Below are positions 31,732 through 38,486 of a stretch of DNA of 41,095 nt, piece after piece. The DNA is from Candidatus Coatesiibacteriota bacterium (GTDB lineage Bacteria; RBG-13-66-14; B26-G2; WVWN01; G020348885), in assembly GCA_020348885.1 (NCBI GenBank), contig CP070755.1, positions 2,278,702 to 2,319,796 on the forward strand, read 5' to 3'. A program made the position numbers and the translations under genes. A model generated the notes under the pieces. It was not told the DNA's origin and ran no database searches. It worked only from the letters and a program-made list of their open reading frames with translations. The stretch's first letter is position 1. Every line of letters begins with the position of its first letter.

Positions 31732-33756
31732 ATGGATAAATCACAGACGTTAATGAAATCAGTACTTACGACCTTAACGGTAACAGCCGTCCTGATTGCG
31801 GTTCCGGCCGCGGCCGCCGACCTCGGGTACGAAGGTACACGCTGCCTTACCTGGGTATCCGACGACCCGGTTTACGGCGCGATTATTGAGGAAGCGAAAG
31901 AGGACGCCGTCGGTAAGCACCGCTTAAAAGGCCCGCCCGACGACCCCGACGTTGGGGATAGTTGGCAATGGTGGCTGATGGTTCACGATCCTTACCCGGT
32001 TTGGGACCTGTACTGGTGCACCGTCCGCGGTGAAGGGACGAACTGCTATGTCGTAGTCGAAGATTCTCCGTGGAACGTCAACATAGATTCGGCCGACGTC
32101 ACCGCTATTATCGATTTTTTCGATAACGCCACGCCTGGCGACCCGACCCGCGGTACGTACGAGATAAACTCCGACGTTTTCGGGACGCCGCCGGACGAGT
32201 TGGACGACGACCCGAAAATCTACATTCTGTACTACGACTTCGGTACGACGGCCGACGGATGGTTCAACTCGGACGATATGACCGAGGGCGGGACGTCAAA
32301 CGAATGCGAGGTCGTCTATATCAATCCGGCCACTTCGGCGGACCCGGGCGAGCCGTATCTGAACGCGGTCGTCGCCCATGAGTTCGAACATATGATCCAC
32401 TGGAAGTATGACGAGAACGAATCTTCCTGGGTGGACGAAGGATGCGCCGAACTGGCTATGTACCTGTTCGGGCACCCGGATACCATATCGGGTTTCAATA
32501 CTAACCCCGACAACGACCTGACCGACTGGGGCGGCGAATGGGCCGACTATATCCAGTGCTACTTATGGACCCTTTACTTCTACGAAAAGTACGGCGGCGA
32601 GGATACTATCTACGCCCTCGTACACGAACCGGCGAACAGCATTACCGGCGTCGATAACACGCTCGCCGGCGAGGGATACAGCGAGGATATGATAGACGTC
32701 TTTACCGACTGGGTGGTCGCGAACTACCTGGATAATGACGACTCGGGCTTCTTCGGCGGAAAGTACGGTTACGAGGGGGAAGACTTACCGCCGTTCAACT
32801 GCTTTAAAACCTGGACAGATTACCCCGTGGACTCGAACGCGTCGGTACAGCACTGGGCCAGCGATTACGTCAAGTACGAAAGCGGATACGACGGCGGAAT
32901 CGACGACGTTGTCGTGTCTTACTCCAGCCACAAATCGACAGGCGGGACCGCTTATAATTATACCGCCGATGCCGACTGCGACCCGGTCGAGCTTTTTCTG
33001 ACTTTCGATGGCGCCGACAACAACTCGTTCGGCGTCCAGGCGATGCTTTTCGACAACGGCGAAGCGACAGACGTCCTCGCGATGACCCTGGACGGGTCTC
33101 AGTACGGCGAGTTACATATAGCCGACTTCGATACGCCAGTTTTAATAACGCACTTCTCGGCCACCGGCGTTGACGGCGGGATAGAGGTAACATGGCGTAC
33201 GGTCGAGGAATCGGACGGTACGTATTATAACCTGTACCGTCGGCGAAACGACGCCGACGCGAGGCGTACGTCGGGCGGACTAGATAACCCGAGTCGGACC
33301 GACGTTTCAGGCGGTTACGTCTTGTTGAACGATTCGCCCATTACCGGCGCGTCGCCCTATAGCTTCGTCGATTCCGCCGTATCGAGGGACGTTACTTATT
33401 CTTACCTGCTGGAGGCCGTGATCCCGGACGAAGAAGCGGCGAGCGCCGGCCCGCTGAACGCGAGTTGGGGCGGGTCTAAACCGACCGCGTTCGGACTGGC
33501 GCGGCCGTACCCGAACCCGGCCGCTTCGGCGATGACTGTCGCGTATTCGATTCCCGGCGAATCGGGAACTACGGCGGTCGAATTGTCGTTGTACGACGTT
33601 TCTGGTCGAAAAGTCGCGACGCTAGTGAACGGCCCCCATGCTCCGGGGAATTACGAGGTAGTGTACGACGCGACGGAACTCTCGGTAGGGGTTTACGTTT
33701 GCCGCCTGGCGGCCGGTTCCGACGCCGCTGCGAGGTTGGTAGTCGTCGCAAGGTAA
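31732..33756 (+). CDS. Large secreted zinc metalloprotease with C-terminal sorting-type tail
   Basis: A 674-residue exported protein. The HEFEH motif (His216, Glu217, His220) is followed by HW and WVDEGCAE, whose Glu236 is the likely third ligand, a gluzincin arrangement resembling M6/M30-like proteases. The signal peptide (cleavage near AAAADLGY) and an N-terminal domain precede this. After the catalytic part come a beta-rich segment, a fibronectin-III-like domain with YYNLYRRRNDA and YSYLLEAVI, and an FlgD/Por-type tail (FGLARPYPNPA, LYDVSGRKVATLV, GVYVCRLAAG) ending in VVVAR. Start ATG after GGAG. The tail suggests delivery across the outer membrane by a type IX-like route. Confidence 0.9.
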   Translation: MDKSQTLMKSVLTTLTVTAVLIAVPAAAADLGYEGTRCLTWVSDDPVYGAIIEEAKEDAVGKHRLKGPPDDPDVGDSWQWWLMVHDPYPVWDLYWCTVRGEGTNCYVVVEDSPWNVNIDSADVTAIIDFFDNATPGDPTRGTYEINSDVFGTPPDELDDDPKIYILYYDFGTTADGWFNSDDMTEGGTSNECEVVYINPATSADPGEPYLNAVVAHEFEHMIHWKYDENESSWVDEGCAELAMYLFGHPDTISGFNTNPDNDLTDWGGEWADYIQCYLWTLYFYEKYGGEDTIYALVHEPANSITGVDNTLAGEGYSEDMIDVFTDWVVANYLDNDDSGFFGGKYGYEGEDLPPFNCFKTWTDYPVDSNASVQHWASDYVKYESGYDGGIDDVVVSYSSHKSTGGTAYNYTADADCDPVELFLTFDGADNNSFGVQAMLFDNGEATDVLAMTLDGSQYGELHIADFDTPVLITHFSATGVDGGIEVTWRTVEESDGTYYNLYRRRNDADARRTSGGLDNPSRTDVSGGYVLLNDSPITGASPYSFVDSAVSRDVTYSYLLEAVIPDEEAASAGPLNASWGGSKPTAFGLARPYPNPAASAMTVAYSIPGESGTTAVELSLYDVSGRKVATLVNGPHAPGNYEVVYDATELSVGVYVCRLAAGSDAAARLVVVAR

Positions 33757-35685: not shown

Positions 35686-36150
35686 TTAGAGGAAGAAATT
35701 GACGCCGCCTTCGAGGTCGAGGTAGTTGAACGTTAACGTCTCGAACTGGAAGCAGAACGACATCTTAGGGCTGAATTTAAGCTCAGTACCGCCGCCAAGG
35801 ACAAACTCGGCGTCGTTATCGCTTCCGGCGTCGGTCCAGCCGTGGGCAATCGCGAACCCCATGTGAGCGTACGGGACGAGTTTACCGGTCGGGTAGCGGA
35901 ATTTCCCGGCGAAGTTAATGTTGAATATTTTTAGGTCGTCTATGGAAAATTCGATCGCCGGGCTAATCGCGAACATCCCGTTGAACGGCGGTTGCGGAAA
36001 TATCAGGTCACCTTTAAACCCGAAGACGGGACCGAAATATTCTCCTTCTCCGAAGCGCATACCGAACGTGGGACCGACGGCCGTCGTTATGGCGTAAGAG
36101 GCGCTCGTTAATACGGTCAGTACCGTTATCAATACTAATACCTTGCGCAT
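35686..36150 (-). CDS. Small putative outer-membrane barrel protein
   Basis: A 154-residue protein with a signal peptide (MRKVLVLITVLTVLTSASYA) and a mature part of about 135 residues in alternating strands with aromatic girdles (VFGFKGDLIF, FAISPAIEFSIDD, VPYAHMGFAIAHGW, FVLGGGTELKFS, MSFCFQFETLTFNYL), ending in GGVNFFL with terminal aromatic-rich residues. This fits an 8-stranded outer-membrane barrel of the OmpA/PagP size class. ATG preceded by AAGGAGGAG. No other clue to function; it sits convergent to dnaN. Confidence 0.75.
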   Translation of the reverse strand: MRKVLVLITVLTVLTSASYAITTAVGPTFGMRFGEGEYFGPVFGFKGDLIFPQPPFNGMFAISPAIEFSIDDLKIFNINFAGKFRYPTGKLVPYAHMGFAIAHGWTDAGSDNDAEFVLGGGTELKFSPKMSFCFQFETLTFNYLDLEGGVNFFL

Positions 36151-36209: not shown

Positions 36210-36277
36210 CACTGGATTTTCCCCTATATCGCCGGTAAAATCAAGGGAAAATTGGTTTTTTACGAGAGGAATGTCCT

Positions 36278-36931
36278 ATGCCCGATTACGACGAGAAAGC
36301 GGTACACAAGGAGACGATAGAGTACTACCGGTTGACGCTGGCGGCGCACAAGAAAGACCCCCACGCCGTAGAAACGGCGAAAGCCGACGACGCCGTACTT
36401 GCGATGGTGAAGGAAACGCCCGACGTCCTCGAGATAAACCGGAAGATGATGGAAGGCGGGTTGGCCTTCGCCGTGACCCGCGCGATGGCCGTCGACGGCG
36501 CCACGTTCCAGGCCGAGGTTTACGAGGAACTCGACGAGGAGCCGCTGGCCGAACTTTGGCGGAAGCGGGCCGAAGCAGTAGCCGCATCGGGAGATATGGA
36601 CGAGCTTTACGCCGTCTCGGAAAAGATGGACGCCGAGGAAGCGCCGGTTAAAGAGGACGAGGCCCGTTTGAAACAGGTGGCGGATACGATAATCGAAAAG
36701 ATGTTTTTAGTCGAAGCCAGCCCGACAGGGACCGACCTGGACGAGAGTCCAAAACAGACACTGGTCGCGACCCTCGATGAGCTAGGGGAGCGTTACCCCG
36801 GCGTGCGGTTTCCGGACTTGCTCGAGTTGCTGAGAATACACAAGCGGTTGTTCTATACCGATAAACAACTGAAGCGGTTGACCGAGTTCTTCGAGAAGGT
36901 CAACGCCGAGCGGTTAGGGGGTAAGTACTGA
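36278..36931 (+). CDS. Cytoplasmic helical protein of unknown function, first of a pair
   Basis: A 217-residue protein without a signal peptide, rich in Ala, Glu and Lys and predicted by eye to be all-helical. From about residue 45 it holds a module VLEINRKMMEGGLAFAVTRA followed by FQAEVYEELDEEPLAELW. The same module occurs in the next gene. The rest consists of an N-terminal helix (HKETIEYYRLTLAAHKKD) and a C-terminal helical region (VADTIIEKMFLVEASPTG, then FPDLLELLRIHKRLFYTDKQ). ATG with GAGAGGA upstream. Its stop TGA overlaps the next ATG by one base (TGATG), so translation is coupled. No recognised family; it could be an adaptor or structural protein. Confidence 0.8.
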   Translation: MPDYDEKAVHKETIEYYRLTLAAHKKDPHAVETAKADDAVLAMVKETPDVLEINRKMMEGGLAFAVTRAMAVDGATFQAEVYEELDEEPLAELWRKRAEAVAASGDMDELYAVSEKMDAEEAPVKEDEARLKQVADTIIEKMFLVEASPTGTDLDESPKQTLVATLDELGERYPGVRFPDLLELLRIHKRLFYTDKQLKRLTEFFEKVNAERLGGKY

Positions 36932-38436
36932 TGGACCCGACCGTAAAGCAGATGATAGACGGTTTCAAGATGGGCGTGGACGCGCAAGCCGGGATGGCCG
37001 CCGCTCAGGACGCCGTCGAGGAAGTTCGCGGTATCATCGCGAAGATGGAGGAAATCGCGAACGAGCCCGGAATGGACATAATGAAGTTCCAGGAGCGAAT
37101 GGGCGCCGAAGGCTTAATGGATAAATACGGCGAAGCGATGGCCAGACTCGCGACAGCCGGCGAAGCCGCCGTAGTTGAGATGGCCGACGCCGTGGACGAG
37201 GCGGCCGCCGAGGCCGAACCGGTGGACCTGGCCGAACTCGACATCTACGACCTTGAGGTCGCCGTCGGGCCGCACCGCCAGGTGTACGAGACGACCGTTA
37301 AAAAGAAAACGGACTTACCGTATCTAAAAGCCGCATACGAAGCCCTGTTCGCTCTGGCCGACGAGTGCGAGACGGTAGTCGAGTTCAACCGCCGGGCGAT
37401 GGCCGATGGGCACCTGTCACATCTGGGCCTGGCCGGGACGTGGGACGCCAATATGAACACCTTCGAGAAGGAGGTCGTCCACAAACAACCGGATATGATT
37501 ACGTACGCGCTGGACGCGTTGGAGACGACCCGCGACAACCCGTTCCCGGAGACTATAGTGTACGCGTTGAACCGGCTGGCGTTCCTGAACGAACGGAAGA
37601 TGGCGGTTCGGCAAAGCAAGTTCAGCCTTTTTAACGCCTTCGCCGCCGAACTTTCCGCGTACCTAATACTGGTCCATACCGAGGAACAGCGGCAAAAAGC
37701 AGTCAATATGTTCGGGATTCAGAAGGAGTTAACGGGCTGGGGCTTCGACGAAGCCGCGTACGATCCGTACGTCCGCCAGCTTCTGACTATGGGCGACGCC
37801 GGGAAGCGGGCCGAACTCGGCCCCGACTACCTCGGGATATTTCCGTTCCTGCGCGTGGGATGGTATTTAGACGCTTCCCTCTCGCCCGACGAGAAGAAAG
37901 AGTTGGCCGAAGCAGAAGAACCGCCGCGACCGCCGGCGTACCCGTATCCGTACAGGACCGGGCCGGTGGGCGGCGTCGAACTAACCGTCGAGGAACCGCA
38001 GTTCACGGCGGCCTTCGACGAACCGTACCCGGTTAAGTTATCGCTCGCCAACAACTCGGGGGAAGCGAGGAAGCTCGACGCGAAGAAGGGTTTGCGTATC
38101 TGGGTAATCGCCGGCGACGGCGCCGAAACGAAGAAGTTTAAGGCCGACTTACCGGCCGAGCTGGGACCGGGCGAGACGTGGTCCGCCGACGGCGATTTGT
38201 ACGCGTGGGGACTTCCGAAGGAGGAGCGGCTTTATTTGGTAGCGTTTGACGTTGGCCTCGAAGGCGAGTATGGTTGCGACCTGGCCGAGAAGTACGGCGA
38301 CCCGAACGCGGCACCTCTGGACTTCAAAGCCAACTGCTTCCTTGAACCGTTCGAGGGTGGCTGTGCTACGGACCCGGTTTTTGCGGCGCCGCGGCGCCCG
38401 GTGCCAGAGTACCCGTTTCCGATACCTGTGGAATAA
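36931..38436 (+). CDS. Cytoplasmic protein of unknown function with a C-terminal beta-sandwich
   Basis: A 501-residue protein with no signal peptide. The N-terminal 85 residues are helical (MDIMKFQERMGAEGLMDKYG) and resemble the module of the upstream gene. Residues about 110-210 carry a clearer copy (VVEFNRRAMADGHLSHLGLA, FEKEVVHKQPDMITYALDAL), followed by more helices to about 330. A Pro/Tyr-rich linker (PPRPPAYPYPYRTGP) leads to a beta-sandwich at about 350-460 (YPVKLSLANNSGEARKLDAK, LRIWVIAGDG, then LYLVAFDVGLEGEYGC) of the kind found in BsuPI or other adhesion-like domains. The tail is Pro-rich. ATG overlaps the previous stop. A bidirectional terminator follows. No function can be assigned. 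Confidence 0.8.
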   Translation: MDPTVKQMIDGFKMGVDAQAGMAAAQDAVEEVRGIIAKMEEIANEPGMDIMKFQERMGAEGLMDKYGEAMARLATAGEAAVVEMADAVDEAAAEAEPVDLAELDIYDLEVAVGPHRQVYETTVKKKTDLPYLKAAYEALFALADECETVVEFNRRAMADGHLSHLGLAGTWDANMNTFEKEVVHKQPDMITYALDALETTRDNPFPETIVYALNRLAFLNERKMAVRQSKFSLFNAFAAELSAYLILVHTEEQRQKAVNMFGIQKELTGWGFDEAAYDPYVRQLLTMGDAGKRAELGPDYLGIFPFLRVGWYLDASLSPDEKKELAEAEEPPRPPAYPYPYRTGPVGGVELTVEEPQFTAAFDEPYPVKLSLANNSGEARKLDAKKGLRIWVIAGDGAETKKFKADLPAELGPGETWSADGDLYAWGLPKEERLYLVAFDVGLEGEYGCDLAEKYGDPNAAPLDFKANCFLEPFEGGCATDPVFAAPRRPVPEYPFPIPVE

Positions 38437-38458: not shown

Positions 38459-38486
38459 AAGCCGCCCATACGGGCGGCTTATTTTT
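38459..38486. terminator. Bidirectional terminator between the pair and tldD
   Basis: AAGCCGCCC (38459-38467), loop ATAC, GGGCGGCTT (38472-38480), then ATTTTT on plus and TTTCTTTT on minus. Confidence 0.9.

Follow-up and report, generated by a model that had tools for sequence, protein, structure and literature searches.

How are the two proteins encoded by a tightly joined gene pair in this stretch of DNA (the window, 41,095 nucleotides in all) related to each other, and what might they do together? Both genes lie on the plus strand. Gene 1 (36278..36931) encodes a predicted all-helical protein of 217 amino acids, and gene 2 (36931..38436) encodes one of 501 amino acids, made up of an N-terminal module, a core, a Pro/Tyr-rich linker, and a beta domain; both have homologues. 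A ribosome-binding-site-like GAGAGGAA (36264..36271, plus strand), recognized by reading the sequence, stands 5' of gene 1. As an earlier, sequence-only reading of this DNA had described, the two open reading frames overlap at TGATG (36929..36933, plus strand), the A of which is common to both, and this stop/start arrangement would be expected to couple their translation. The two-gene unit is ended by an intrinsic-terminator-like hairpin with a 9-bp stem and a T tail (38459..38480, plus strand; terminator-like on the minus strand too). Across the three genome pairs compared, dN was lower than dS for gene 1, gene 2, and every part of gene 2, with dN/dS ratios of ~0.13 to 0.44 for gene 1 (dN well below dS) and ~0.20 to 0.27 for gene 2. 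Gene 1 and gene 2 are real genes under purifying selection.

Do the two proteins share a repeated module? The sequence-only reading had proposed three related segments, whose motif copies are VLEINRKMMEGGLAF (gene 1 residues 50 to 64; 36425..36469), IMKFQERMGAEGLMD (gene 2 residues 50 to 64; 37078..37122), and VVEFNRRAMADGHLS (gene 2 residues 149 to 163; 37375..37419), all on the plus strand. Its letter pattern, (F/I)(N/Q)RxMxxxG(L/H), fits the gene 1 copy but is loose as written, both gene 2 copies deviating: in the N-terminal one position 3 is E, and in the middle one position 5 is A. The follow-on segments that it had aligned begin at gene 1 residue 77 and gene 2 residue 178, at a nearly equal spacing from the motif. 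Predicted secondary structure gives the same order of helices, with similar lengths, in all three copies: residues 6–25, 31–46, 50–59, and 62–84 in gene 1 (AF2 model, pLDDT 86); 3–20, 26–43, 50–59, and 62–94 in the N-terminal module of gene 2 (from a model that is poor overall but acceptable over its first ~70 residues); and 108–126, 130–145, 149–158, and 168–182 in the gene 2 middle module (part of the same poor model).

We then asked whether these likenesses reflect common descent, using hhalign and deep profiles that pooled ~28 homologues per gene from the two phyla in which the pair occurs. Because hhalign E-values are for single comparisons, the weight is carried by shuffled controls, in which heptad blocks were permuted so that local helical texture was kept. 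Residues 18 to 200 of gene 1 (36329..36877, plus strand) aligned with residues 116 to 294 of gene 2 (the core; 37276..37812, plus strand) over 176 columns in a single register (E = 3.9e-9, score 67). None of 200 controls did as well, the highest scoring 28, and the register was identical in 10 of 10 random half-samples. A profile comparison of the segments had been put forward with the sequence-only reading as its refuting test; with pooled profiles the score is significant, and the duplication reaches beyond the one proposed, extending through gene 1 residues 18 to 200 and the whole gene 2 core.

Among the individual modules, that of gene 1 (residues 18 to 85; 36329..36532, plus strand) matched the middle module of gene 2 (residues 116 to 184) with E = 4.1e-7, and the N-terminal module of gene 2 (residues 4 to 68; 36940..37134, plus strand) matched the same middle module with E = 8.5e-6, in each case with deep profiles and with 0 of 100 controls as good. 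The third link is weak: gene 1 set against only the N-terminal module of gene 2 gave E = 0.005, a level equalled by 1 of 100 controls. The three segments are related all the same. Judged by these profile comparisons, gene 1 and the gene 2 core are paralogues, products of an ancient duplication, and the comparisons also support reading the N terminus of gene 2 as a further copy, within the same protein, of the first module.

Could gene 1 and gene 2 instead be unrelated operon partners whose amphipathic helices have converged? Every segment is helical and acidic, and neither shallow nor single-phylum profiles gave a significant score. With shallow profiles (~7 near homologues per gene), the copies aligned in the expected register but at hhalign E-values of 0.03 to 0.66 per pair; none of these matches was significant, and the 7-sequence profiles would wrongly have marked the relationship as unsupported. 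Gene 1 against gene 2 with single-phylum profiles was likewise not significant, the pooled profiles being required, a sign of their wide divergence. Convergence does not readily account for pooled profiles that beat every one of the 200 heptad-permuted controls along a single register, nor for the independent recovery of the same partner module by genome-wide search. The gene 1 profile was run blind, in six frames, against the 14 genomes from the window's phylum; it matched the gene 2 middle module in 8 of them (E = 2.9e-4 to 0.008), and its only other matches at E up to 0.01 were to gene 1 itself. The gene 2 profile, for its part, was matched by a divergent gene 1 sequence (E = 3.4e-4). The present scores are strongly against convergence, which we regard as very improbable.

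A larger repeat reading, with three units in gene 1 and four in gene 2, was also considered. The helix spacing fits, but the extra units did not rise above controls (pairs g1R1-g1R2, g1R1-g1R3, g2R2-g2R4, and g2R1-g2R3), and the high g2R2-g2R3 and g2R3-g2R4 scores are merely the overlapping ends of cut segments; the larger repeat is therefore not claimed.

How widespread is the pair, and do the two genes stay together? Counting either gene 1 or gene 2, the pair is present in 10 of 14 genomes in the window's phylum. When 386 genomes were searched with a gene 1 profile, a match adjoining a gene 2 homologue turned up outside that phylum (E = 2.2e-13), and gene 1 was matched in 23 of 42 genomes of this second phylum. 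There, gene 2 directly follows gene 1 in 19 of the 20 loci examined, and the remaining contig stops within gene 1. Adjacency, which the sequence-only reading had suggested surveying, is thus kept in both phyla, without exception among the examined genomes that have the two flanks assembled, the junctions ranging from a 17-nt overlap to a 2-nt gap. In trees, the sequences cluster mostly by phylum. Three genomes, one in the first phylum and two in the second, carry a divergent type of the pair. The gene 1 profile gave four faint matches elsewhere (E = 0.0015 to 0.035), with no recognizable pair in the stretches around them. No gene 2 turned up among the other bacteria sampled, a sample that leaves room for further phyla; 386 further genomes, covering 85 genera around one distant genome, yielded nothing; and no relatives were confirmed in viral contigs. 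The flanking genes outside the pair are not common between families, and the pair is therefore a unit of its own.

Some loci depart from this picture. In two (L127, frames 1083–1503; L128, frames 775–1324), gene 1 is a degenerate copy interrupted by an in-frame stop codon; the first of these continues into apparent gene 2 sequence, and an intact divergent pair (L122) is present in the genome with the second. Within the second phylum, several genomes of a single genus (L092, L095, L100, and L101) have the pair close to a gene run that includes, judged by eye, aconitase/isopropylmalate-dehydratase-like subunits, an arrangement not seen in the other genera examined.

The sequence-only reading had also placed the two proteins outside any known family, and this holds for Pfam, NCBIfam, PHROGs, PADLOC, and PDB sequences. 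The best hits of the window's gene 1 were far below cut-offs (Pfam, E = 0.084; NCBIfam, E = 0.077), gene 2 matched neither database, and relatives of both likewise gave none at the curated cut-off. PADLOC defence profiles gave no match up to E = 0.1, PHROGs gave none of note, and PDB sequences offered no family for either protein. The AF2 model of gene 1, built from a two-sequence alignment, is good (pLDDT 86, pTM 0.68) and all helical, with helices at residues 6–25, 31–46, 50–59, 62–84, 88–103, 107–147, 157–172, 178–187, and 195–212. It has no clear match among solved structures. Its long antiparallel helix arrangement resembles helical-repeat and BAR-type helical bundles (e.g., 7udl, 4dcn, and 6fes), but Foldseek E-values against the PDB all exceed 0.6 with Z at most 6.4, and for helical models such a likeness may mean a common arrangement only. 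The gene 2 model is poor (mean pLDDT 46), with an acceptable first module, and is limited by its input, which, as for all the structure models, was the window plus one related locus.

Beyond its core, gene 2 has the Pro/Tyr-rich linker that had been noted from the sequence (residues ~330 to 345; 37918..37965, plus strand), conserved in the alignment as PYRTGPVGGVEL. The "beta-sandwich" said to follow it corresponds to a putative beta-rich domain with a conserved Pro-rich tail (37966..38433, plus strand), its strands, between residues 349 and 441, being predicted at low confidence. This domain occurs in window-type proteins and is absent from the divergent type and from the second phylum, where gene 2 is ~352 amino acids long, so the fusion that had been suggested is supported for the beta domain, in the window type only; the linker, too, is confined to that type. 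A weak match of the Transglut_C Ig-like domain (PF00927) to the beta domain, seen in two of seven homologues (best E = 0.1), is below cut-off and not significant. A 119-amino acid protein (L051) with a weak profile match was dropped, since only 47 profile positions around a PVDL linker were involved and close relatives were present in two genomes only.

What history and what product would account for these observations? An ancestral helical protein gene may have undergone tandem duplication, one duplicate becoming gene 1 and the other gene 2; gene 2 would have acquired, at its N terminus, another copy of the first helical module and, in the lineage to which the window belongs, the C-terminal linker and beta domain. 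Tandem duplication, module duplication, and beta-domain gain are reconstructed events to which we assign no order among themselves. Gene 1 and gene 2 are probably read from one transcript, and with overlapping stop and start codons they would therefore be made in matched amounts. The two proteins might then bind each other through equivalent helical faces, giving a soluble heterodimer in the cytoplasm, or an assembly of several such dimers. A cytoplasmic location, proposed earlier, is consistent with the lack of any strongly hydrophobic or transmembrane-like stretch in either protein; both are acidic.

We infer a two-component complex because adjacency is conserved and the reading frames overlap. 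General ground for such a step is offered by one source on the use of conserved gene neighbourhood to predict interacting products (PMC6941341) and by another on operon organization and complex assembly (PMC4742563). Adjacency could also reflect a shared pathway without contact between the proteins. The pair resembles the general class of tandem-duplicated, translationally coupled paralogous subunits, with adjacent overlapping genes, paralogous products, and a conserved unit: homology of the products was found, as was conserved adjacency with overlapping or abutting frames. It differs in that its fold and family match nothing named, and in that the complex is here deduced from the genes. On balance we favor, with some confidence, an obligate soluble heteromer of two paralogous helical subunits that would probably serve as a binding scaffold, the complex, its stoichiometry, and its scaffold role all being deductions.

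Does residue conservation speak to function? Hardly any residue of gene 1 or gene 2 is invariant across both phyla; those invariant or nearly so are Y16, A69, D73, and R97 in gene 1 and D49, Y136, and N153 in gene 2. Paralogous heterodimers with shared active sites are common, and these few residues would suit a heteromeric enzyme with its active site at the interface of the two paralogues. That reading fits poorly, however, with the lack of a match to any enzyme family and of a catalytic-looking set of conserved His, Cys, Asp, or Glu across the two phyla; low conservation is in itself a weak argument against an enzyme, and on the whole we consider one improbable. A binding or scaffolding role is favored because conservation does not pick out a group of polar residues of the kind expected at a catalytic site, and because the beta domain looks like an extra part for binding.

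Another possibility is a toxin-antitoxin-like or defence pair in which one harmful protein and its partner are held together by coupling. Such a pair could explain the tight two-gene unit, its patchy presence (10/14 and 23/42 genomes), the degenerate copies in some genomes, and the lack of a fixed neighbourhood. It accords less well with the lack of any PADLOC match and of PHROG matches of note, the lack of confirmed viral relatives, the grouping of sequences mostly by phylum, and two proteins that are paralogues of each other, and we think it quite improbable.

Are any modules found outside the pair? An 87-amino acid homologue of the gene 2 N-terminal module is encoded elsewhere in the window's own genome (L040:6513-6776), between a lactate racemase (larA) gene and an FAD/Fe-S D-lactate-dehydrogenase-like gene. 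A second genome (L039:6673-6936) has the same small gene, then the same dehydrogenase. The small protein is 92% identical between the two genomes, and the following gene 68%. Because this copy stands alone between lactate racemase and dehydrogenase genes, it suggests that the N-terminal module can act on its own. The same arrangement might point to the pair as a regulatory or accessory partner of lactate metabolism; but it was found in two genomes only, among the neighbours of the pair itself no lactate gene was noticed, and such a role is quite doubtful. Somewhat speculatively, and with the odds against it, one might see an unnamed helical module family that forms a dedicated two-subunit cytoplasmic assembly in two phyla and whose single module, encoded between lactate genes, also works alone, which would suggest a new protein-binding module of general use. 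Two hypothetical proteins become one defined family conserved in two phyla, with a putative history of tandem duplication, internal module duplication, and later domain gain. The pair is a concrete target, and the stand-alone module a first link to metabolic genes.

Two other genes in the window were noted in passing. Divergent from gene 1 on the minus strand (35686-36150) is a small predicted outer-membrane beta-barrel protein (PF13505, below cut-off). Farther upstream, on the plus strand (31732-33756), a predicted secreted protein bears a C-terminal sorting domain of the Por secretion type (PF18962), a hint of type IX-like secretion in this organism.
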